This document shows, one piece after another, positions 52,027 through 63,823 of a DNA stretch of 64,000 nucleotides (the first letter of the stretch is position 1; each line of letters begins with the position of its first letter). The DNA comes from Aquimarina algiphila (GTDB lineage: Bacteria; Bacteroidota; Bacteroidia; Flavobacteriales; Flavobacteriaceae), in NCBI RefSeq assembly GCF_007489275.1, contig NZ_VLNR01000005.1:1-64000 (forward strand), read 5' to 3'. The notes under the pieces were generated by a model. The model did not search any database, was not told the origin of the DNA, and saw only the letters and a program-made list of their open reading frames with translations. The position numbers and the translations under genes are program-made.

Positions 52027-53187
52027 TTAACCTCTAAATAAGAAAAACCGATCTTTCATATTTTCAATTTCAGAATTTTTATTTGTAAGAATATAGTCGA
52101 TAGCTTCAGTAGTAAAATTTTTACCCTTATTTGTTAAGGAGACAATGTCATTATCTATAGTAATCATGTTATTTTTTAGAGCTAGATCCAAAACAGATTT
52201 GGATTGTACTTTCTGCCAATTAATATGTTCGTTTAAGTGTTTAACATGACGTTCTTCTTCTTCTTTATGATTTCCTAAGTGAAGAAGAAATGTAAGTAGT
52301 GAAACCTCTATTCTTTGTTGTTTCTGTCTATACAGTACAGAGAATAAACCTTTATCAGGTGCAAATAGATACACAAATAGAAAAACCAATCCTAAAACCG
52401 TAGTCATCGACCCAGAGATAGAGGTGTCTAAGGCATGGGCCATCCAATATCCTCCAATGGCACTACTAACCCCAAAAAGTACAGAGAGTAAGAGCATTTT
52501 TTTGAGATCATTTGTTAGTAAATAAGCAGTAGCTGCTGGAGCGATCATTAGTGCGATCACCAAAATAGCACCAACAGCATCGAATGCACCAACTGTGGTG
52601 ATCGAAGATATTGTCATTAATCCATAGTGCATTACAATAGGGGAGAGCCCCAATGCAGAAGCGAGACCAGCATCAAATGTACTGACTTTTAATTCTTTGA
52701 AAAAAGCAAAAAGCAAGCCTAATGTGATCAATAAAATACTACCGATAATCCATAAGGACTTGGGGCCTACATCGGCTCCTTCCAAAATTAATCGATCAAA
52801 AGGAGCAAAAGCTAATTCTCCTAATAATACGGCATCGATATCAAGGTGGACGTCGTTTGCATTTTGGGCAATAAGTATAATCCCTATACTGAACAAAGCA
52901 GGGAAAACCAGCCCAATTGCAGTGTCTTCTTTTACCAATCCTGTTTTCTGAATAAATTCTACTAATATTACTGTAATCACTCCACTTGCGGCAGCAAGAA
53001 TAATTAATAATGGAGAAGATAAATCGTGAGTAATAAAAAAACCAATCACAATACCAGGTAAAATAGAATGGCTTATGGCATCAGTGATTAACGCCATTTT
53101 TCTTAACACAAGAAATGTACCGGGGATAGCACATGCAATAGCCACAAGGCTAGCAATTAATTGTATTTCTATCTGCGCGCTACTCAT
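52027..53187 (-). CDS. Metal ABC transporter permease with C-terminal winged-helix-like domain (second permease)
   Basis: This is the TroD/ZnuB-like membrane subunit. About eight helices (1-285) carry the family sites DAISHSILPGIVIGF and GAFDAVGAILVIALMIAPAATAYLLT. The C-terminal 95 residues (about 292-386) are soluble and read as a winged helix: LLTFLLHLGNHKEEEE..., SVLDLALKNNMITIDNDIVSLTNKGKNFT. Ordinary permeases end after the helices. A comparable permease-regulator fusion is Chlamydia YtgC-R, where a DtxR-like domain is released. It overlaps the first permease by 8 bp. Confidence 0.88.
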   Translation of the reverse strand: MSSAQIEIQLIASLVAIACAIPGTFLVLRKMALITDAISHSILPGIVIGFFITHDLSSPLLIILAAASGVITVILVEFIQKTGLVKEDTAIGLVFPALFSIGIILIAQNANDVHLDIDAVLLGELAFAPFDRLILEGADVGPKSLWIIGSILLITLGLLFAFFKELKVSTFDAGLASALGLSPIVMHYGLMTISSITTVGAFDAVGAILVIALMIAPAATAYLLTNDLKKMLLLSVLFGVSSAIGGYWMAHALDTSISGSMTTVLGLVFLFVYLFAPDKGLFSVLYRQKQQRIEVSLLTFLLHLGNHKEEEERHVKHLNEHINWQKVQSKSVLDLALKNNMITIDNDIVSLTNKGKNFTTEAIDYILTNKNSEIENMKDRFFLFRG

Positions 53188-54310
53188 TTTCTTCGGTAAT
53201 TAATTGATCATATAGATTTGAAGCGGTGTTATATCCAGATTCAGTCATAGACCACATGTTTCCACTAATCTTTACGTAATCTTTGTCTTCCAGTTTTTGA
53301 AGAGATTTTCTGGTAAATCCTTGAAAATTATTCAAGATTTTGATCGCATGTGGGTGTGCAATATCTTCATGGGTCTTTGCGATATTATACATAAAAGATA
53401 AGGTTTTATGTAATTGAAGATCATTTCTGTTTTTGCGGAAACGTATTTCTCTGAATAATAATCCTCGCCCAGGTGAAAATATAAACGAAACTAATACAAA
53501 TACCCCCGCAACTAATACGATTACGGGTCCGGTAGATAGATTATTATGGCTGGCACTAATTGCGGTTCCCAGTACTCCAGAAAATGCACCAAATATAGCT
53601 GCCAAAATAACCATTACAGATAAATTGTTTGTCCATTGTCTAGCTGCGGCAGCTGGAGCTAAAAGCATGGCGCTCATTAATACAACGCCTACAGTTTGTA
53701 AACCTAGAACAATGGCTATCACAATAAAAGTAGTAATAAGAATATCCAAAAACTTAGTGTTAAAACCTAGTGTTTTTGTGTAATCAGCATCAAACAATAG
53801 TAATTTAAGTTCTTTCCAGAATAATAATAAAATGACTAAACTAATTGCTGTAACAATTACCATTAACCATACATCGCTTTCTAGAAGTGTTGCTGCCTGA
53901 CCAAAAAGGTAACTCTCTAGACCTGCTTGATTGGCATTTGGCATTTTTTGGATATATGTGAGCAATAACATACCAAATCCAAAAAATAATGATAAGATTA
54001 GGCCTAAAGCAGTATCAGATTTAAGATGTGTCTTACTTGTTATTCCTCTAATCCAAAAAGTTCCTATGAGACCACTAATTAATGCTCCAAGTAAGAATAT
54101 TGAACTATTTTTAGTACCCATAATTAAAAAAGCAATAGCAATACCAGGTAAGGCAGCATGAGAAATAGCATCACCCAATAAACTTTGTTTTCTTAATACG
54201 GCAAAACTACCTAACATTCCGCAGATTGCACCAAGCACAGCCGTACCTAACGTTATTGTTCGTAACGTATAATCTGTAAAAACAAGTTCGATATATTGTT
54301 GTATATCCAT
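53180..54310 (-). CDS. Metal ABC transporter permease with C-terminal winged-helix-like domain (first permease)
   Basis: This TroC-like subunit has a membrane part (1-283) with GDAISHAALPGIAIAFLIMG, DTALGLILSLFFGFGMLL, and LQTVGVVLMSAMLLAPAAAARQW. The tail (about 296-372) reads LHKTLSFMYNIAKTHEDIAHPHAIKILNNFQGFTRKSLQKLEDKDYVKISGNMWSMTESG, a helix-helix-helix-wing arrangement as in DtxR or ArsR-type regulators. The start lies 30 bp after the frameshifted four-helix-bundle gene. Confidence 0.88.
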   Translation of the reverse strand: MDIQQYIELVFTDYTLRTITLGTAVLGAICGMLGSFAVLRKQSLLGDAISHAALPGIAIAFLIMGTKNSSIFLLGALISGLIGTFWIRGITSKTHLKSDTALGLILSLFFGFGMLLLTYIQKMPNANQAGLESYLFGQAATLLESDVWLMVIVTAISLVILLLFWKELKLLLFDADYTKTLGFNTKFLDILITTFIVIAIVLGLQTVGVVLMSAMLLAPAAAARQWTNNLSVMVILAAIFGAFSGVLGTAISASHNNLSTGPVIVLVAGVFVLVSFIFSPGRGLLFREIRFRKNRNDLQLHKTLSFMYNIAKTHEDIAHPHAIKILNNFQGFTRKSLQKLEDKDYVKISGNMWSMTESGYNTASNLYDQLITEENE

Positions 54311-54339: not shown

Positions 54340-54716
54340 TTAGTTCTTATTTTTGTTTTTAAGATGTTTTTGTAAACTAGTAATCATTTTTGATAATTCT
54401 GCTAGCCTTAGTCTAGTCGTCTTATTTTCGTTTTCGGATATATATATCTTCTTCTATTTGCAATTGTAGAACAGACTACACATTCCCGTACTGAATCTAT
54501 TGCTATCTGTAAATACCTATTAAATTGAGCATCCGTATTTCCTGAGCCTTCAGCAATATTTAAAGCTACAGAATTTGCCGCACGGATATATTGAGATGAT
54601 AGTCCATAAGTTTCAACACTTGGAAATTTTTCACAAGTATTATAAACCAAGTCAACAAAGTTAAGTGCTTTTTGGTATACTATTAAATCTTCAAAATTGA
54701 ATTTTACTTCTTCCAT
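54340..54716 (-). pseudogene. Four-helix-bundle (S23/23S rRNA intervening-sequence-type) protein, frameshifted
   Basis: The N-terminal 88 residues match the family well (FEDLIVYQKALNFVDLVYNTCEKFPSVETYGLSSQYIRAANSVALNIAEGSGN...ECVVCSTIANRR). At a (AT)5 run (54438-54447) the frame is lost and ends early at RRYIYPKTKIRRLD. In the alternative frame, which needs two bases fewer, translation continues as ISENENKTTRLRLAELSKMI to a stop at 54340-54342, giving the usual length of about 124. The family is mobile in character and of unknown function. It interrupts the metal transporter operon between ATPase and permease genes. Confidence 0.75.
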
Positions 54717-54748: not shown

Positions 54749-55486
54749 CTACCCTTGAACACTAACTTTGTAGTTAATTCCGTATGTCTTGGTTAAGTTA
54801 TCATCATTAAAAATATCTTTCACTGGCCCGGTAGCAATTTTCTTTACATTAAGAAAAGTAACCCAATCAAAATATTCTGGTACAGTTTGAAGGTCGTGAT
54901 GCACAACAATAACCGTTTTTCCTGCTTTTCTAAGTTCTTTTAGAATATTGATAATAGCTTTTTCGGTTGTGGCATCCACACCTTGAAAAGGTTCATCCAT
55001 AAAATAAATCGATGCATTTTGAACTAAAGCTCTTGCTAGGAAGATACGCTGTTGCTGCCCTCCAGAAAGTTGACTGATCTGTCTGTTTTTAAAAGAAAGC
55101 ATTCCTACTTTTTCTAACGCTTCCAAAGCAGCTTTTTTTTCTTTTTGTCCAGGTCTCTTAATCCAGCCAAGACTACCATAAGTCCCCATCATAACCACAT
55201 CCAGAGCAGTGGTAGGAAAATCCCAATCGACACTTCCTTTTTGCGGTACATAGGCAACTAGAGATCGTTGTTTTTTATAAGATTTCCCATAGATTTGAAT
55301 GCTTCCCGCAATTGGTTTAATGATATCTAAAATCGATTTGATCAAGGTAGATTTACCTGCTCCGTTTGGCCCTACAATTGCCATTAATACTCCTTCAGGT
55401 ATTGCTAGGTCAATATCCCATAATACAGGTTTGTAATTATAAGCTACGGTGAGGTCATCTATTTGAACTGCAATTTTATTTTCCAT
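54749..55486 (-). CDS. Metal ABC transporter ATP-binding protein (TroB/ZnuC-like)
   Basis: It powers metal uptake through the two permeases. Walker A GPNGAGKS (39-46), signature [17 protein letters not shown], Walker [14 protein letters not shown], and the switch VVHHDLQT. The length of 245 is standard. Its gene overlaps the lipoprotein gene by one base, so they are co-expressed. It is separated by 32 bp from the frameshifted four-helix-bundle gene, which lies between it and the permeases. Confidence 0.93.
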
Positions 55487-56400
55487 TATTGTAGTGCATT
55501 TACAATAGTATTTACGTTATATTCAAACATACCAATATATGTTCCTTCTTTGGTTTCTAGATTACCAAGAGCATCCGAGAATAATGTACCTCCTATGCTT
55601 ACTTCATGATCCTTTGATTTTACAGCCGCTTGCAGAGCTTCAATAGTTCGTTTGGGAACAGAAGTTTCTACAAAAATAGCTTTCACCTCTTTCTCAATAA
55701 TAAAACTAGCTAATTTCTGAACATCCTGCACTCCAGCTTCTGTGGCAGTAGATAAGCCTTGAAGTCCAACAACATTAAAATCATAGGCTTTTCCGAAGTA
55801 GCTAAAAGCATCATGTGCGGTTACCAAAATTCTTTTTTCTTTTGGGAGAGTAGCTATTTTCTTCTTTAACCTGGCTTCAAGTGTATCTAATTCTAATAAA
55901 TATGCATTTCCATTAGTTTCAAAGACTTTTGCATGTTTTGGATCGATTTCTTTAAGTTTATTAATAACAAATGTGGTAATGATTTTCCAGTTTTCGACGC
56001 TAAACCATATATGTGGATCGTAGTTTGATGCAAAATAATCAGAGCCGATTAATGTATTTTTATCCAGACTTTCTCCAATAGCTATGGTCTTATTATTCTG
56101 ATGTTGCATTTTTTCAAAGACCTCTACTAGTTTACCTTCCAAATGTAAACCATTATAAAAAATTACATCGGCATTAACTAATTTACTAACATCACCTTCA
56201 CTTGCTTTATATAAGTGAGGGTCAACACCACTACCCATTAAACCATTAACCTCTATTAAGTCTCCTCCGATATTTTTAACCAGATCTGTAATCATAGAAG
56301 TAGTAGTAACTACTTTAAGTTTTTGATTCTCATCTTTCACTTCTTTTTTACATGAAAATGAGAGTGAACAAATGACTAGTATCGAGATTATTTTATTCAT
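55486..56400 (-). CDS. Zinc/manganese-type ABC transporter substrate-binding lipoprotein (TroA-like)
   Basis: A lipoprotein (lipobox LSFSC, C17) of the cluster A-I family. Metal ligands line up as H62 (DPHLY), H130 (DPHIW), H196 ([15 protein letters not shown]) and D276 (LFSDALG). A His at the third site, where PsaA-type Mn-binding proteins have Glu, is as in TroA and zinc-binding members. The His-rich loop of ZnuA is absent, so Zn, Mn or Fe(II) is possible. It is divergent from the DtxR-type regulator at 56.7 kb, with 246 bp between. Confidence 0.9.
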
Positions 56401-56568: not shown

Positions 56569-56662
56569 GCACAACTAAGAGTTAATAAAGGAAGTAAGAT
56601 GATTCTATATAATTGCATTAGGTTTAGTAATTTTGCTATATTATTTTGACAAAACTAAAAAA

Positions 56663-56678
56663 GTTAGTTATGACTAAC
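56663..56678 (+). promoter_or_regulatory. Candidate DtxR/MntR operator over the regulator's start codon
   Basis: GTTAGT-tatg-ACTAAC is a perfect dyad of 16 bp that includes the ATG at 56670. A nearly identical 16-bp palindrome lies in the TonB-receptor promoter (61775-61790). I infer autoregulation by the encoded metal-dependent regulator. Confidence 0.6.
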
Positions 56679-57356
56679 AAATTAAATTTGAATAATTTAA
56701 CAAAAAGTGAAGAAGATTATTTAAAGGCTCTTTTTCAATTACTTATTGAAGATAGTTCTGTAAAGGTGGGAAATAATCAATTGGCAGATTATCTTAAAGT
56801 TTCACCAGCTTCTACGAATAATATGATTAAGAAGTTGAAAGCTAAAAACTATGTAGTAAGTGAAAAATATGGTAAGCTGGATTTAACAGAAGAAGGAAAG
56901 TCTATTGCTGTACGATTGATTCGTAAACATAGACTATGGGAAACTTTTTTATGTAATTACCTTAATTTCACATGGGATGAAGTACATGAAGTTGCGGAGC
57001 AATTAGAACATATTAAATCCAAAAAGTTGATCAACGAACTGGATCGCTTTATGGATTTTCCTGAAAAAGATCCACATGGAGAGATGATTCCAAATGCAGA
57101 TGGAGAATATTCAATTTTACCTAAAATTACACTTTCTTCACTCTCTGATGGGGATGTTTGTCAATTAGTGGCAGTGGATGATGGATCTGTTAATTTTTTA
57201 AAATATGTATCTGAAATTGGACTGGCATTAAGCAGTGAAATTAAAGTTCTCGAAGTTCGTGAATTTGATAAGTCTATTCGCATACAGTTTGATAATACTA
57301 TAGAAACCGTAACTAGAAAGTTTGCTGATAATGTATTCGTTAAGAAGGTTGTATAG
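56670..57356 (+). CDS. DtxR/MntR-family metal-dependent transcriptional regulator
   Basis: Represses metal uptake genes when its metal is plentiful. The N-terminal winged helix (residues 10-80, LTKSEEDYLKAL..., LADYLKVSPASTNNMIKKL) is followed by the dimer domain with ligands H87, E110, E113 and H114 (HRLWE, EQLEH). A C-terminal SH3-like domain (about 150-228) follows, as in DtxR. The residue at MntR position D8 is Asp (D16 in EEDYL), where iron-type DtxR has Met; the MntR E11 position is Lys. Metal choice is therefore open. The start ATG was chosen over an upstream TTG that lies in the promoter. Confidence 0.93.
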   Translation: MTNKLNLNNLTKSEEDYLKALFQLLIEDSSVKVGNNQLADYLKVSPASTNNMIKKLKAKNYVVSEKYGKLDLTEEGKSIAVRLIRKHRLWETFLCNYLNFTWDEVHEVAEQLEHIKSKKLINELDRFMDFPEKDPHGEMIPNADGEYSILPKITLSSLSDGDVCQLVAVDDGSVNFLKYVSEIGLALSSEIKVLEVREFDKSIRIQFDNTIETVTRKFADNVFVKKVV

Positions 57357-57437: not shown

Positions 57438-58217
57438 ATGGAGCTTAATTTAAAAAGACCGATATGTTTTTTTGATCTTGAAACGACCGGTATAAATATT
57501 TCTAAAGATCGAATTGTAGAAATTTCTATTCTAAAAGTATTTCCTAACGGTACTCAGGAGAGTAAAACCTGGCTGGTTAATCCTGAAATGCCAATACCTC
57601 CAGAGACTACTGCTGTGCATGGTATTGATGATGAGAAAATAGCTAATGAGCCTACTTTTAAACAATTAGCAAGTAAAGTTAGTGAAATGATTAAAGGTTG
57701 CGATTTGGGAGGGTTTAATTCTAATCGATTTGATATTCCGTTATTGGCAGAAGAATTGTTAAGAGCAGGTCTTGATTTTGATATGAAAAATGCAGTTGCG
57801 ATTGATGTCCAGACTATTTATCATAAAATGGAAAAAAGAACACTTTCTGCAGCTTATAAATTCTATTGTGATAAGGATCTTACAGATGCACATTCTGCTG
57901 AAGCAGATACAATGGCAACCTATGAGGTATTAAAAGCTCAATTGGATAAATATCCTGAATTAGAAAATGATGCAAAGTTTTTAGCCGAATTTAGTTCTAG
58001 AAAACAATTTGCAGATTTCGCTGGTTTTATTGCATATGATGATGATAAGAAAGAGGTCTTTTCTTTCGGAAAGCATAAAGGGAAGCTTGTTGAACAAGTT
58101 ATGGACGAAGAACCTGGGTATTTTGGATGGATTCAGAATGCTGACTTCCCTTTGTATACAAAAAAGGTTCTTACAGCAGTGAGACTTCGTAAACTAAATA
58201 ACAGCTTGAAATTATAA
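57438..58217 (+). CDS. DnaQ-like 3'-5' exonuclease with DUF3820 C-terminus
   Basis: A DEDDh-type exonuclease domain (1-180) shows D13/E15 in FFDLETTG, GGFNSNRFDIPLL and HSAEADTMATY. It resembles the proofreading subunit of DNA polymerase III. The C-terminal 60 residues (VFSFGKHKGKLVEQVMDEEPGYFGWIQNADFP) match DUF3820. This is the standard flavobacterial form. It is followed 28 bp later by a FAH-family gene, in the ancestral order also seen in related genomes. Confidence 0.9.
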   Translation: MELNLKRPICFFDLETTGINISKDRIVEISILKVFPNGTQESKTWLVNPEMPIPPETTAVHGIDDEKIANEPTFKQLASKVSEMIKGCDLGGFNSNRFDIPLLAEELLRAGLDFDMKNAVAIDVQTIYHKMEKRTLSAAYKFYCDKDLTDAHSAEADTMATYEVLKAQLDKYPELENDAKFLAEFSSRKQFADFAGFIAYDDDKKEVFSFGKHKGKLVEQVMDEEPGYFGWIQNADFPLYTKKVLTAVRLRKLNNSLKL

Positions 58218-58245: not shown

Positions 58246-58857
58246 ATGAAGCTTATTTGTATCGGTCGTAATTATACAGATCATATAGAAGAATTGGATA
58301 ATGAGAAACCTAAAGACCCAGTGGTTTTTATAAAACCAGACACTTCAATTTTACTAAAAAAACAACCTTTTTTTATTCCTGATTTCTCTAATGATATACA
58401 TCATGAGTTGGAAGTATTGGTAAAAATTAATAGAGTTGGTAAACATATTGATAGAAAATTTGCGCATAAATATTATGAGGAAATAGGATTAGGCATTGAT
58501 TTTACTGCCAGAGATCTTCAGACAAAACTTAAAGAAAAAGGCTTGCCCTGGGAAAAAGCTAAAGCTTTTGATGGTGCTGCTGTTGTAGGAAAGTGGGTTT
58601 CTAAAGATAATTTTAAAGATGTAGATGATATCGATTTTCATTTGGAAAAAAATGGGGATACCGTCCAGAAAGGAAATACAATGTTTATGCTCTGGAAGAT
58701 CAATGAATTGATAGAATATGTTTCAAAATACTTTACTTTAAAGATAGGGGATGTCATATTTACAGGTACTCCAGCAGGTGTTGGGTCGGTAAAACCAGAT
58801 GATGTTTTGACTGGTTATATAGGTGATGATCAGTTTTTTTCGATAAAAGTAAAATAG
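58246..58857 (+). CDS. Fumarylacetoacetate hydrolase (FAH)-family protein
   Basis: The short YcgM-type FAH fold (203 residues) with metal ligands E54 and E56 (HHELEVL) and D85 (IDFTARD), then FTGTPAGVGSVKPDDVLTGY near the end. These enzymes hydrolyse or decarboxylate 2-oxo or acylpyruvate compounds in the cytosol. A decayed duplicate of its last 35 codons stands at 62.1 kb. Convergent with the thioredoxin-like gene, 43 bp away. Confidence 0.92.
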   Translation: MKLICIGRNYTDHIEELDNEKPKDPVVFIKPDTSILLKKQPFFIPDFSNDIHHELEVLVKINRVGKHIDRKFAHKYYEEIGLGIDFTARDLQTKLKEKGLPWEKAKAFDGAAVVGKWVSKDNFKDVDDIDFHLEKNGDTVQKGNTMFMLWKINELIEYVSKYFTLKIGDVIFTGTPAGVGSVKPDDVLTGYIGDDQFFSIKVK

Positions 58858-58900
58858 AAAATTATAAGCTTAAGTAAAGTGAACAACTTTAATTTTTTAC

Positions 58901-59377
58901 TTATAATACCTGTAAAAGTCGTTTAGGACTCATATATGTAAAAAATCTTTTATCTACTTTAAAGGTTTCGTCCATAATAATAGTTGCGGGTAGAGAAAGG
59001 GGACGATTTTTTCTGGAAGCTAATAATATAGGAATGTCATGTATGGGACTTCTTGAAGTCAAATGATTTTCATTGGTAAAAATACTTCCTCCAAAAACGA
59101 TAGTATCCTTGGTTTCGACATTCATTTTTACTACATAATATTCTTCGGATAATTTTTTCACAATATCAGGTTTGGTAAAAACTACCCGATCCATCTTTTT
59201 ACAATATACGCACCAGTCAGCATAGAAACTGATAAGAACCTTTTTAGGTTTGATTTTTAAAGAATCTTCCAGTTGTTCAAAAGATATCCATTGAACTTTT
59301 TCTCTATTTTGAGCGTAGCCTGTCAAAGAAGATAAAATGACTAGAAAGATGGAGAGTGTAATTAATTTAGATTTCAT
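58901..59377 (-). CDS. Thioredoxin-fold protein, secreted
   Basis: Signal peptide (about 1-22, GYAQN) followed by a thioredoxin fold with CxxC at 56-59 (FYADWCVYCKKM) and VPKKVLISF. PATIIMDE (cis-Pro loop region) is the second hallmark. It would act in the periplasm on disulfides. It is 2 bp from the TonB receptor gene, so it is in the same operon and probably in its regulon. Proteins of this type may maintain cysteine pairs such as the receptor's plug CxxC. Confidence 0.88.
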   Translation of the reverse strand: MKSKLITLSIFLVILSSLTGYAQNREKVQWISFEQLEDSLKIKPKKVLISFYADWCVYCKKMDRVVFTKPDIVKKLSEEYYVVKMNVETKDTIVFGGSIFTNENHLTSRSPIHDIPILLASRKNRPLSLPATIIMDETFKVDKRFFTYMSPKRLLQVL

Positions 59378-59379
59378 AT

Positions 59380-61743
59380 TTAGTGAAGTTTACCAAATTT
59401 AATCCCTATAAAAAAGGTTCTTGGAGCTCCAGGACCATAAATATAATCAGAATCTCGTAAAGGACCTATATCAAAATCATCCTGGTAGTTGTCGAAGATA
59501 TTTTTTATTCCTCCACTAAAAGTCATTTGAAAATTTTCTGAAATATCGGTATGATATTCAAGTTTTATATTCACATCAAAAAAAGAATCACTATCGACAA
59601 GGTCTAAAAAGCCAGATGGGCTTACTACTCGAGGAATTGTCATAGAACCTGTATACGTCCCAGTAAGGTCCATGTTAAAATGTTCTCCAGGTATCCATGA
59701 TGTATTAAAGTATCCATAAGAATTAGGGTTTCTAACAAATTCATCAACACTTACATCAGTTTCATTTGGTATCGTTCCATCAGTTTCAAAAAGTATTTGT
59801 GCTTCATCATATTCTGCCTTTTGTATCGTTCCTCCAATCTGAAATTGCCATTCTTTAGAAGGGGAGATCCCTATTTCTAAATTAGTTCCAAAAACATTGG
59901 CTCCAGACCCATTTCTAACTTCTTCTAAAATAGACCCATTTTCTAACACTGCACCAGTACTCACAAGTGTAAAAGGATCTTGTAAATCGGTATAAAAACC
60001 TTCAATCAAAATATCAGTTTGTACTTTGTTGAAGTTCTTACTATAGTTAAAAGAGGTGGTGTAGGCATTAGAGTACTCAGTATTTAAATCTTCTGATAGG
60101 ATTACAAACTGAGGTTCACCGCCGACTGATGAAACGTGTAAATCTTCATTGAATGCTTGTGGTGTTCTAAATCCTCTGGCATATCCTCCTCTAAATTTTA
60201 AAGCCTCTGTTATATTATAAGAAAGGGTAAGACGCGGGCTTAATACTGTTTGTTCTATCGAAACCTCTCTAGATATACCACCAATGTTATAATCTCCTTT
60301 AACATTAACATGGTCCAATCTTGTTCCTACAAGTGCTGTTAGATTGTCATTAGGTTTCCATTCATATTGTGCATAAGATCCAATGGTATTTACATTTTGA
60401 TCAATTAACCTATCGTATCCTGGAATAATATCTTCGGTATCACTTAGGTTATATTCTACGCCCACAGTAATAATATCTTCGTTTTTAAAATTATAAGTGT
60501 ATTGTGCTCCGGATACTAAAGCTAAATCTTTTGTGGTACCATAAGAATTAAGCGCAAGAATACTATCCTGTTGAGTTCTTGAACCTCCTAAACCACCATA
60601 AAAACTTCCTCTTTCTGTGTATTGCCCCGAAGTATATACTGAAAAATTGCTGTTGAGATTTTTGTTTTGTAGATCATATGTTATTCCGCCTAAAAAAGTA
60701 TCATGATCTAATTGTTCAGTAATATCTGTAAAGTGAGGGGCTAAGTCAAGTCGATCTCCACCTCTTCGAAATTCTTTTAAGGTGGTTAAGTCTAAAGAAA
60801 TTTTACTACGTTCATTTGGTTTAAGGTATGTTTTAATGCCAAATGTAGTGTTTGATAATGTAGTTAATTCAGAAAATCCATCATCATTTGCATCAAACTC
60901 TTCGCGATCTCGCTTTAGTCCAAAAAGTGTTATTCCGCTCATAAGGTCATCACTCACTAAAGAAGAGTTAAAGTTAATTAGGCGATCAGGTACATCGCCG
61001 TCTATCAAGCCAAAATAACTACCAATTTCCCATGTATTAAGTACAGGGTCTTTGGTGATAATGTTAATAGTTCCTGCAATAGCGTTAGAACCATAAAGAG
61101 CAGAACCACCACTTCTTACTACTTCTATGCGTTCGACAATATTAGTAGGAATTTGTTCTAAACCATATACATTATTTAGTGCGCTAAAAACAGCCCTGCT
61201 GTTGACCAAAACTTGAGTATAACTTCCATCCAACCCATTTAATCGCACTTGAGTAAAACCACAGTTTTGACAATTATTTTCTACTCTAACCCCAGGAGAG
61301 TAATTAAGCCCATCTGATAATGAGATAGATTGTGTGGCATTAAGTAATTGTGGATTTAGAACATTAACTACTACAGGAGCTTTTTTTCTATTCACTCGAT
61401 TCCTGGTTGCGCTTATCACAATTTGATCCAGATTAAGTCTATCTTCTTCAAGTTCGATTTTTTTTATTGTAGACTCACCAGGTATAATAGCAACTTCTTC
61501 TTTTGAAGTCTGAAACCCTAATAAACTTACCTTTACAGTGAAATTACCAGCAGGAATGTTTTTTACTTCATAAAAACCTTCTCCATTGGACGAGGATGAT
61601 GTTCTAAAAGACGTATTGAATACTTCTATAGTTGCAAATGGTAATTGTTTGTTATTTGATGTAATAGAACCTTTTAAACTTCCAGTCTGAGATATAACAA
61701 AAGTTGATTGTAATAAAATAAAGAATACTAAATAACGCTTCAT
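59380..61743 (-). CDS. TonB-dependent outer-membrane receptor with CxxC in the plug
   Basis: A 787-residue receptor: signal peptide (about 1-19), carboxypeptidase-regulatory-like domain (20-100), plug (about 110-240) and a 22-strand barrel ending FIGIKFGKLH. The plug carries NNCQNCGFTQVRLNG with C158 and C161, and GGSALYGSNAIAGTINIITKD. The cysteines may bind metal or form a disulfide. A DtxR-like operator in its promoter links it to metal control. The ligand is unknown; metal-siderophore or free metal is inferred. Confidence 0.92.
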   Translation of the reverse strand: MKRYLVFFILLQSTFVISQTGSLKGSITSNNKQLPFATIEVFNTSFRTSSSSNGEGFYEVKNIPAGNFTVKVSLLGFQTSKEEVAIIPGESTIKKIELEEDRLNLDQIVISATRNRVNRKKAPVVVNVLNPQLLNATQSISLSDGLNYSPGVRVENNCQNCGFTQVRLNGLDGSYTQVLVNSRAVFSALNNVYGLEQIPTNIVERIEVVRSGGSALYGSNAIAGTINIITKDPVLNTWEIGSYFGLIDGDVPDRLINFNSSLVSDDLMSGITLFGLKRDREEFDANDDGFSELTTLSNTTFGIKTYLKPNERSKISLDLTTLKEFRRGGDRLDLAPHFTDITEQLDHDTFLGGITYDLQNKNLNSNFSVYTSGQYTERGSFYGGLGGSRTQQDSILALNSYGTTKDLALVSGAQYTYNFKNEDIITVGVEYNLSDTEDIIPGYDRLIDQNVNTIGSYAQYEWKPNDNLTALVGTRLDHVNVKGDYNIGGISREVSIEQTVLSPRLTLSYNITEALKFRGGYARGFRTPQAFNEDLHVSSVGGEPQFVILSEDLNTEYSNAYTTSFNYSKNFNKVQTDILIEGFYTDLQDPFTLVSTGAVLENGSILEEVRNGSGANVFGTNLEIGISPSKEWQFQIGGTIQKAEYDEAQILFETDGTIPNETDVSVDEFVRNPNSYGYFNTSWIPGEHFNMDLTGTYTGSMTIPRVVSPSGFLDLVDSDSFFDVNIKLEYHTDISENFQMTFSGGIKNIFDNYQDDFDIGPLRDSDYIYGPGAPRTFFIGIKFGKLH

Positions 61744-61763
61744 GATAAAAAATTAGTCTTGGC

Positions 61764-61771
61764 AAATTTAT
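61764..61771 (-). promoter_or_regulatory. -7 element of the TonB receptor promoter
   Basis: Read on the minus strand this is TAAATTTG, 20 bp upstream of the ATG. The operator overlaps the space where the -33 element would lie. Confidence 0.5.
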
Positions 61772-61774
61772 AAA

Positions 61775-61790
61775 GTTAGTTTCAACTAAC
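61775..61790 (-). promoter_or_regulatory. Candidate DtxR/MntR operator in the TonB receptor promoter
   Basis: GTTAGTT-tc-AACTAAC is a perfect palindrome (7-bp arms) directly upstream of the -7 element. It matches the dyad over the regulator's start codon (56663-56678) at all but 3 of 16 positions, and both are flanked by AAA...AAAT. A bound repressor here would block transcription. Confidence 0.65.
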
Positions 61791-62094
61791 AAATATTTTA
61801 ACTATTTTTATATTCATAAATTTCAGTATCCTAAAAACAGTATTAAAAATGCTATACCATGTTATATTGAGACCTGTTTTTTTTATGTGTAATTATTGAG
61901 TTTTATCTTATGAAAGGTTCGTAAAAATACTAATGATTATAAGGTGTAGTAATGATCAATCCCTACTTTGAAGTGAAAACAGCTAATGTTTTTTGTTTTA
62001 TAATAGAAAATATGTGAATATTTCTATGTTTATAGGCTTAATTTTGAATGAATTATCGAGGGAGTAGTAAGAATATCCTTATAAATGTTTTAGA
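61791..62094. other. Non-coding region between the TonB receptor promoter and the FAH relic
   Basis: AT-rich, without a recognisable gene. It holds a TAATTTTG -7 element at 62039-62046, described separately. Confidence 0.45.
62039..62046 (+). promoter_or_regulatory. -7 element that may serve the HPt-cinA operon
   Basis: TAATTTTG, about 167 bp before the HPt start. Without it the HPt and cinA genes would have no promoter after their separation from the FAH gene. Confidence 0.35.
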
Positions 62095-62212
62095 TTAAAG
62101 ACTGGAGGTATTATATTTACGGTACATCAGCTGGGATTGAACCTATAAAAACGGATATTATTTTAGCTGGATATACAAACAACCAACAATTTTTTCAATA
62201 AAAGTTATATAA
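62095..62212 (+). pseudogene. Decayed 3' fragment of a FAH-family gene
   Basis: Translated across two one-base frameshifts, this stretch reads LKTGGIIF, then GTSAGIEPIKTDIILAGY TNNQQFF and SIKVI-stop. It aligns with LKIGDVIFTGTPAGVGSVKP... and FFSIKVK-stop of the FAH gene at 58.2-58.9 kb. The nucleotide sequence is also similar (for example ATATTTAC-GGTAC against ATATTTACAGGTAC). The stop codon abuts the HPt ATG. It looks like a relic of the original FAH-HPt junction, or of a second FAH copy. Confidence 0.75.
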
Positions 62213-62551
62213 ATGAGCAAAGGATATAGTTTAAAAAATGTAGATGAATTATCAGGAGGTGATAATGAATTTATAGCTGTATTAGTACAGACATTTTTAG
62301 AAGAAATACCACCTGATCTCGATAGTATGGTTCAGGCAGTAAATTCTGATAATCCACAAATGGCATACCAATATGCTCATAAAATGAAACCTAACCTTCA
62401 GTTATTTGATATTGATCTTTTGGCTCAAATTAAACAAATTGAGGCATGGTCAAAAACAAATAAAGCAAAGGAAGAGATACTACCAATTTTAGAGCATATT
62501 GTTACTACAGTAAATGGTGCTATAGAGAATCTTAAAGCTGATTTTAGTTAA
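62213..62551 (+). CDS. HPt (histidine phosphotransfer) domain protein
   Basis: A stand-alone HPt domain of 112 residues: four-helix bundle with the phospho-acceptor H56 in YAHKMKPNLQLF. Such proteins relay phosphate from hybrid sensor kinases to response regulators. No kinase or regulator gene is adjacent; the nearest REC protein is the NtrC-like gene at 12.5 kb. It overlaps nothing and lies 3 bp before cinA, so they form an operon. Confidence 0.85.
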   Translation: MSKGYSLKNVDELSGGDNEFIAVLVQTFLEEIPPDLDSMVQAVNSDNPQMAYQYAHKMKPNLQLFDIDLLAQIKQIEAWSKTNKAKEEILPILEHIVTTVNGAIENLKADFS

Positions 62552-62554
62552 TAT

Positions 62555-63823
62555 ATGTTTGCAGAAATTATTACTATAGGTGATGAAATTCTGATAGGTC
62601 AGATCATTGATTCTAATTCTGCGTTTATGGGAAAAGAATTGAATAAGATAGGTGTTGATGTACATCAGATCACATCGATTAGAGATGATCGACAACATAT
62701 TCTTGATGCTCTTGATGAGGCAAGTAAGAGAGCAGATATAGTGTTGCTAACAGGAGGTCTTGGACCGACTAAAGATGATATTACTAAACATACTATTTGC
62801 GAATATTTTGATGATACTTTGGTGCAGAATGATCAGGTGTTGGCTCATATAGAAAAGTTATTTGCAAAATATATCTCAACTCCAATTTCCGAGGTAAATA
62901 AGCAACAAGCTCTTGTTCCTAAAACTTCAACGGTCTTGATGAATCTTTTTGGGACAGCACCGGGAATGTGGTTAGAAAAAGAGAATAAAGTATTCATATC
63001 AATGCCTGGAGTACCATATGAAATGAAAGGTTTAATGAAGAATGAAGTACTGCCAAGACTACAAAAGAGATTTGACAGACCATACATTATACATAAAACT
63101 ATACTTACATACGGTTTAGGAGAAAGTTCTATTGCAGAAAAAATTGAAGATTGGGAGAATGATTTACCCTCTTTTATTAAGTTAGCCTATTTACCTAATT
63201 TAGGTAATGTAAGACTTCGGCTTTCAGCTAGAGGAAATGATAAAAACCTTCTAGAAGATACAATAGAAAGCAAAGTACTGGCTTTACATGATATTATAGG
63301 TGATATTATTGTTGGCTATGAAGAAGATGAAACTATCGAAGTAAGAATAGGGAAGCTATTGGTTAAACAAAATAAAACACTTTCATTAGCAGAGAGTTGT
63401 ACAGGTGGTAAAATAGCGCAATTATTTACAAGCAGAGGAGGAGCATCAGCTTATTTTCAAGGGGCAGTAGTTACTTATGCTACTCAATCCAAAGTTGATA
63501 TATTAGGAGTGGATGAAGAAATTATAAAAAAATTCACGGTAACTAGTGCTGAAGTTGCAGAAGCAATGGCTTTATGTGTAAAAGAAAAGTTTAAATCAGA
63601 TTATGCAATTGCAACTACAGGTAATGCAGGTCCAGAAAAAGGAGATGGAGATGTAGAAGTGGGTACAGTTTTTATTGCAATAGCGAGTCCAAATGGTGTT
63701 TTTTCAGAAAAATTTGTATTCAGTAATCTTAGGGATCGAACCATTGGAAAAGCTGTTAATAAATCATTTGAGCTTCTTCTGCGCGAATTGAGGTTAAATA
63801 AAGATTTAATCGCGAATGATTAA
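62555..63823 (+). CDS. cinA: CinA-family protein (nicotinamide mononucleotide amidase / ADP-ribose pyrophosphatase)
   Basis: A cytosolic 422-residue protein with an N-terminal MoCF-biosynthesis-like domain ([40 protein letters not shown]) that acts as a CoA/ADP-ribose pyrophosphatase. A C-terminal PncC domain ([40 protein letters not shown]) deamidates NMN to nicotinate mononucleotide. It takes part in NAD recycling. The gene end overlaps the convergent next gene by 18 bp. Confidence 0.94.

Follow-up and report, generated by a model that had tools for sequence, protein, structure and literature searches.

Why should the decayed end of one gene persist directly in front of another? The question arises from a 64,000-nucleotide stretch of Aquimarina algiphila DNA (contig NZ_VLNR01000005.1, positions 1 to 64,000; hereafter the window), in which a FAH-family hydrolase gene is separated from the HPt and cinA genes by a block encoding a thioredoxin-fold protein and a TonB-dependent receptor (TonB-A), and in which a relic of the FAH 3' end lies between this block and HPt. 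Genomes with the thioredoxin-TonB block between FAH and HPt are termed carriers, and genomes without the block at this site non-carriers. It appears likely that the FAH end is both coding sequence and a cis element for HPt-cinA, and that these two roles have been split by a block taken up repeatedly via homologous recombination.

A decayed FAH 3' end occupies positions 62070-62212. Local alignment of FAH with the DNA between TonB-A and HPt scores 54, compared with a maximum of 39 among 1000 dinucleotide shuffles, and the homology covers positions 62070-62211, i.e., FAH codons about 156-203. The preliminary description, which placed a decayed copy of the last approx. 35 codons at 62095-62212, was thus right about the homology and too narrow about its extent. 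Its two single-base frameshifts correspond to two single-base deletions, both in the relic, and the relic stop codon (TAA, 62210-62212) does immediately precede the HPt ATG (62213). At E≤1e-3, a FAH search of the window genome returned the gene at 58246 and nothing else; therefore, this genome offers no better FAH source for the relic. A relic is found at the same position in 12/12 carriers, at differing stages of decay.

The HPt locus was obtained in 50 of 52 Aquimarina genomes (33/33 plus 17/19; G063 and G069 gave no HPt match). In 38 of these 50 (39 rows, as G031 contributes two loci), a gap of 2-13 nucleotides, which counts the stop codon, lies between the last FAH codon and the HPt ATG; in the remaining 12 (G000, G009, G012, G014, G018, G022, G026, G056, G061, G064, G067, and G068) the block separates the two genes. 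The ancestral order is therefore FAH-HPt-cinA, broken by a 3.2-kb block, as had been proposed; the block is far from being at this site in all relatives, and those without it have FAH directly ahead of HPt. On a tree of rpoB and gyrA from 49 genomes, the distribution of carriers requires 8 changes, compared with a mean of 10.8 for shuffled labels, which came down to 8 in 11 of 500 shuffles. Among the best 80 of at least 572 relatives of the receptor, FAH and HPt stand alongside in one, from Aquimarina litoralis, the sole Aquimarina there.

The block had been thought to arrive with a duplication of the present FAH 3' end, an origin that the relics contradict. In 12/12 carriers the top-scoring match of the relic is a non-carrier FAH end, and the carrier's own live FAH end comes only 24th-48th among as many as 51. 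An origin of the relic as a copy of the present FAH is thereby rejected; because all relics align best with non-carrier ends, the relic, to judge from these alignments, is mainly a displaced native FAH end. In 10/12 cases the best match and the carrier share one half of the tree, and the relics of G009 and G056 match the neighbouring G062/G065 pair. The live FAH ends of 10/12 carriers, in turn, form one clade (Shimodaira-Hasegawa-like approximate likelihood ratio test, 97), with G000 and G064 outside it, and these separate-clade ends are read as incoming; the 5' thirds of the carrier FAH genes require 9 changes. In the window genome the live FAH is native-like up to its stop codon (32:5 informative sites), so a duplication of the native end is possible there.

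Two carriers have FAH genes that are evidently mosaic. The first 150 alignment columns of the G014 gene are 96.5% identical to its non-carrier sister G006, and columns 300-450 are 75% identical to G006 and 84-86% identical to the carriers G026 and G056. The crossover falls at nucleotides 289-312 (informative sites 21:2 vs. 4:28; permutation p 2e-4). Downstream of the block, G014 HPt shows 88-90% identity to G006 and G029, and the G014 relic is 82-83% identical to the G006/G029 ends, 85% to that of G057, and 70% to its own live end. In G018 the crossover lies at nucleotides 463-498 in the first comparison (35:6 vs. 2:14; permutation p 2e-4).

The pattern of conservation suggests why the relic has been kept. 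Among the 31 non-carriers of the main Aquimarina clade, the best 20-codon segment of FAH for synonymous identity reaches 0.83, starting from codon 153, and the best segment in six neighbouring genes reaches 0.735, at the mntR start. Over FAH codons 157-173, synonymous identity reaches 0.85 in these 31 non-carriers, whereas the 12 carriers stand at 0.53 and 7 outgroup rows at 0.54; over codons 1-140 it is 0.56-0.58 in all three groups alike. When close relatives were thinned (21 + 9 rows), the difference at codons 157-173 was reached by 0/1000 label permutations. In the relics, it is codons 161-173 (the stretch W1) that resemble the non-carrier consensus (0.87 vs. 0.54 in the middle part; higher in 12/12, p 4.9e-4), and they do so at codon positions 1/2/3 almost evenly (0.88/0.88/0.83; middle part 0.52/0.57/0.54). 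The live ends of carriers, by contrast, are strongly periodic (0.94/0.97/0.58). Thus, the relic retains its stretch without codon periodicity, whereas the live end keeps the protein constraint, as far as substitution patterns reveal it. The motif TAT[A/C]TTTAC, which was picked post hoc from the alignment, occurs in 31/31 non-carrier ends, 12/12 relics, and 0/12 carrier live ends, that of the window included. Taken together, conservation, periodicity, and motif point to a DNA-level function of this stretch in non-carriers that has been handed to the relic in carriers. The seven early-branching genomes (G005, G007, G021, G031, G058, G059, and G072) have FAH adjoining HPt and no synonymous conservation at codons 157-173, and the element therefore seems to originate within the main clade. 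As a datable scar, the relic yields a relative age only; "scar" is too weak a word for a relic with one stretch conserved in 12/12 carriers.

W1 lies 93-130 nucleotides ahead of HPt, and it is read as a cis element, probably the HPt-cinA promoter, located within FAH. This reading relies on its position, its size, and the TAT[A/C]TTTA box, which in 12/12 relics and 31/31 non-carrier ends agrees at 7 of 8 positions with TAHHTTTG, the -7 box of Bacteroidota sigma-A promoters (consensus from Flavobacterium johnsoniae, PMC6847099). In such promoters, transcripts begin 4-5 nucleotides downstream. The final G is missing, which makes the box no more than a candidate. A promoter scan yielded only this 7/8 match, which is not specific.

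Several observations weigh against this account as a whole. In F. johnsoniae, the G at -5 that the box lacks is almost invariant (PMC6847099). Under a loose promoter model, the G026 live end, one of three scored, equals the non-carriers, and several relics have other sites that score as high or higher. Over the full codons 157-173, third positions of the relics agree at 0.65-0.82, which is below the value of the own live end in 3/12 (G000, G026, and G067); the live ends of G000 (13/16) and G026 (12/15) fall within the non-carrier range, and the G000 relic element (0.82) is barely above its middle part (0.75). The difference at W2, the weaker conserved stretch beside the HPt start, shrinks after thinning of relatives (0.72 vs. 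0.69 at the strictest). The FAH sub-trees have few supported branches, the G018 breakpoint shifts to 541-549 with other reference carriers, and FAH breakpoints in G012, G022, G064, and G068 are not significant. Relics of the same four genomes share derived features, and therefore not every relic was newly made from its host; some transfers, as far as these shared features indicate, brought part of a relic along. Finally, the species alignment rejects the CinA tree (p 0.012) and the Exo (exonuclease) tree (p 0.005), and the palindrome described below is intact at one of four TonB-A blocks located elsewhere, in three other genomes.

The block itself has a history of its own. The TonB alignment rejects the species tree (approximately unbiased test, p 1.3e-4) and likewise the CinA, ZnuA, and Exo trees, and the TonB tree is rejected by the species, CinA, ZnuA, and Exo alignments; the species tree is accepted by the CinA, ZnuA, and Exo alignments. 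Because of this conflict and the differing FAH crossovers in G014 and G018, the block appears to have moved between species more than once and so to have been acquired repeatedly by recombination. Vertical descent of the block is rejected on the same grounds, with some shared history of the relics remaining. No integrase or transposase was found in the block: its open reading frames (ORFs) of at least 60 amino acids in 58857-62213 are the thioredoxin, the receptor, and a 78-amino-acid ORF antisense inside the receptor gene, the first two being covered by Pfam identification and the third standing outside that scan. Strong terminal inverted repeats are absent; the closest pair (58875-58899/61746-61770) is 72% complementary over 25 nucleotides, within the range of other chance pairs. 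With no recombinase among the identified ORFs and no clear terminal repeats, a mobile element was rejected as an explanation of the block.

In 12/12 carriers the receptor plug contains the motif NNCQNCGF and the partner thioredoxin the motif WCxYC. The same palindrome, AGTTAG-N6-CTAACA, stands ahead of TonB-A in 12/12 carriers and at mntR in all 43 genomes in which mntR could be seen, a single one of them showing a mismatch, and we presume the palindromes to be MntR operators. In 41 of the 43 genomes, the mntR start codon itself lies within the palindrome. Exact sites are rare, numbering 4 in the window genome, two of them in the window, with 2 in the reversed control; a search of the window allowing two mismatches found 7 vs. 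8 expected and is uninformative. The block would work with the nearby importer, probably in the uptake of manganese. Among the best 80 of at least 572 receptor relatives (L186-L265), a WCxxC ORF adjoins the CQNC receptor in 66 loci, and an MntR relative occurs within the fetched stretch in 42. The idea that a thioredoxin always accompanies a plug CxxC was dropped, as 14/80 CxxC relatives have no such ORF. The CQNC receptor with a neighbouring thioredoxin-like ORF is common in Bacteroidota; the distribution of the pair has been termed restricted (PMC13217887).

A further regularity concerns the slot between znuA and mntR, which was scored as filled when it contained an ORF of at least 100 amino acids on the znuA strand. 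The comparison covers 43 genomes with znuA-mntR in view (7 genomes without the pair in the fetched stretch were left out), with the top 19 TonB-A candidates per genome scored. The slot is empty in 17/17 genomes with TonB-A and filled in 25/26 genomes without it (Fisher p 4.3e-11; 8 independent pairs, sign test 0.008). The 25 slot genes comprise 15 PF13557 barrels, 9 receptors with a CSIC plug, and a distant receptor without cysteines in G016. The CSIC receptors (CSIC standing where TonB-A has CQNC) have a neighbouring thioredoxin-like gene in G001, G002, G004, G019, G020, G027, G030, G066, and G073; no cysteine was found in the G016 slot receptor and no thioredoxin-like partner alongside it. 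In the single exception, G032, the slot contains a decayed PF13557 barrel (L040, E 1.5e-4), and another TonB receptor, 37% identical to TonB-A, stands at the cluster edge (L040, bases 1-987); this genome is perhaps a swap caught midway. G032 passed the receptor threshold at 37% identity, against 62% or more in the other 17 genomes, and is treated here as a genome without TonB-A; the opposite choice would make the table 18/18 and 25/25. On the basis of this mutual exclusion, TonB-A, the CSIC receptor, and the PF13557 barrel are read as interchangeable outer-membrane partners of one importer.

These observations can be joined in one scheme. In the main clade, the FAH 3' end would encode the protein C-terminus and at the same time hold the HPt-cinA cis element, most likely promoter and leader. 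The block, comprising the CQNC receptor, the thioredoxin, and its own MntR-type palindrome, would have been taken up here repeatedly by homologous recombination, with the left crossover within FAH, as in the two clearest cases, and the right crossover presumably within the FAH end or HPt. This would leave a full-length FAH, whose end in most carriers is of another type, followed by the block and then, ahead of HPt, by the native end that was displaced. The two jobs would then part: the live end stays under protein constraint, and the relic retains the DNA element and drops the reading frame, being kept, we propose, because it still bears the control signal for the next gene. At the outer membrane, the block would become the partner of the nearby ABC importer, and the gene that formerly occupied the znuA-mntR slot would be lost. 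The first arrival may have been a circle bearing a FAH end, since its integration through a single crossover would yield this layout. The broader idea, which seems to us evenly balanced between right and wrong, is that DNA of dual purpose has been split into a protein-only and a promoter-only copy, and that the paired ends act as homology arms by which the block moves between species with its neighbours unharmed, which may be why the same site is reused.

Other histories of the locus have to be considered. One ancient insertion could have been inherited vertically, with non-carriers returning to an empty site either through allele replacement or because FAH recombined with the relic; most relics have a similar AGAATAATCAAT-like junction and begin near one FAH position, G000 being different, and those of G012, G022, G064, and G068 appear related. 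Nonetheless, this is unlikely, as the TonB alignment rejects the species tree, the FAH mosaics in G014 and G018 have different breakpoints, and a FAH end restored by excision via a decayed relic would be broken, whereas 31/31 main-clade non-carriers have the box and a normal stop codon. An old tandem FAH pair with a decayed second copy, offered as an alternative in the preliminary description, would likewise leave a 3' relic ahead of HPt. It is nevertheless very improbable: two FAH copies beside one HPt occur in 0/26 non-carriers of the genus that were searched, and the relic is present only together with the block. Strict gap costs place the relic start near codon 156; looser costs extend it in some carriers with many gaps, which is taken as chance. 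Nor is the relic closest to the neighbouring live copy, the sign of a tandem duplication, since 12/12 fit FAH ends of other species better.

The function of the conserved stretch and the meaning of the exclusivity allow other readings as well. The stretch might act in the mRNA (leader structure, translation, or decay signal) instead of as a promoter: W2, beside the HPt start, is conserved too, in F. johnsoniae, A residues ahead of the start codon are important (PMC6847099), and the -7 box match is imperfect. The strongest stretch, however, lies 93-130 nucleotides ahead of HPt and is promoter-sized, and the sole Rfam match in 58700-62700 is far under its cut-off and elsewhere, which makes an mRNA-level role rather unlikely. 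A known structured RNA at the relic was accordingly dismissed, there being no Rfam match above the cut-off. Exclusivity between TonB-A and the slot gene might, in turn, be the hitchhiking of one linked haplotype with no functional replacement, as both sites lie within 6 kb. However, 5 of the 17 TonB-A genomes carry the gene elsewhere and still have an empty slot; the G014 crossover is inside FAH and its mntR and znuA are native (0.896-0.907 and 0.839-0.853 identity to G006/G029), so that its slot gene was lost separately; and the sole exception, G032, combines a decayed barrel with another TonB receptor. Linkage alone is thus insufficient, and hitchhiking is distinctly unlikely. Repeated uptake of the block, with a FAH end split into coding and regulatory copies, remains the preferred reading, and the features on which it draws are collected in the table.

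Table. Features of the window around the receptor block and the FAH relic
Feature	Position	Strand	Basis and remarks
Metal ABC transporter permease	53180..54310	-	ORF; name by sequence recognition; orthologues adjoin znuA in relatives
Metal ABC transporter ATPase	54749..55486	-	ORF; name by sequence recognition; orthologues in relatives
ZnuA/MntC-like substrate-binding protein	55486..56400	-	Pfam PF01297; znuA-mntR slot empty in window
Palindrome AGTTAG-N6-CTAACA, presumed MntR operator	56662..56679	+	Spans mntR ATG (56670)
MntR-like DtxR-family regulator with FeoA domain	56670..57356	+	Pfam; NCBIfam MntR models match under their cut-offs
Exonuclease gene, conserved flank	57438..58217	+	Pfam RNase_T; its alignment accepts the species tree
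Live FAH-family hydrolase gene	58246..58857	+	ORF, PF01557
FAH codons 157-173, strong synonymous-site conservation in non-carriers	58714..58764	+	
Thioredoxin-fold protein, WCVYC, pTFP-like	58901..59377	-	PF13899, PF13098
CQNC-type TonB-dependent receptor (TonB-A)	59380..61743	-	Pfam Plug and barrel; plug = residues 119-224
Second exact palindrome copy	61774..61791	-	30 bp ahead of TonB-A ATG
Relic of the FAH 3' end, interpreted as the native end in displaced position	62070..62212	+	
W1, conserved relic element, FAH codons 161-173	62083..62120	+	Holds TATATTTA at 62112-62119, a -7-like box lacking the usual final G
W2, FAH codons 193-stop	62178..62212	+	Second, weaker conserved stretch directly ahead of HPt start
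HPt-like protein	62213..62551	+	PF01627, 22.6 bits vs. cut-off 24.6
cinA	62555..63823	+	TIGR00200 above its cut-off

Between the ABC ATPase and permease genes, the window also contains an ORF of 102 amino acids (54408-54716), which may resemble the four-helix bundle proteins of 23S rRNA insertions.

The locus may serve as a natural experiment: constraint on protein coding and constraint on regulation, combined in one stretch of bases, can here each be read by itself. It also calls for caution, since a pseudogene-like relic beside an insertion can be a retained control element. Furthermore, it predicts a role for the CQNC receptor, the CSIC receptor, and the PF13557 barrel (a family named for phenol degradation) as interchangeable partners of an MntR-linked importer, a prediction that is testable in culturable marine bacteria.

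Internal promoters within an upstream coding sequence, where a regulatory element overlaps the 3' coding end of a gene, are well known; in Aquimarina, however, a natural rearrangement appears to have placed the two functions in two copies. In subfunctionalisation after duplication, two functions of one sequence are shared out between two copies. Here, in contrast, a gene end is paired with a relic that does not code, recombination supplied the second copy, and the divided functions would be protein coding and cis-regulation. Gene ends are known sites of recombination, and overlapping signals are known in their own right; searches among open-licence PMC papers listed no report of a promoter split off from a coding end. 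As for the block, its closest likeness is the MntR-regulated pair of a CQNC TonB-dependent receptor and a thioredoxin-fold protein (the CQNC-TBDR/pTFP module) described in 2026 for Stenotrophomonas maltophilia, where limitation of Mn and Fe induces it (PMC13217887). Both have a CQNC plug, an adjacent CxxC thioredoxin-fold protein, an MntR-type palindrome before the receptor, and mntR close by. Unlike that module, the Aquimarina block belongs to Bacteroidota, has CVYC in place of CAPC, sits between unrelated genes, and alternates with other outer-membrane genes. In Burkholderia thailandensis, MnoT (cited in PMC13217887) mediates TonB-dependent manganese uptake, by description the task that the Aquimarina block would perform.

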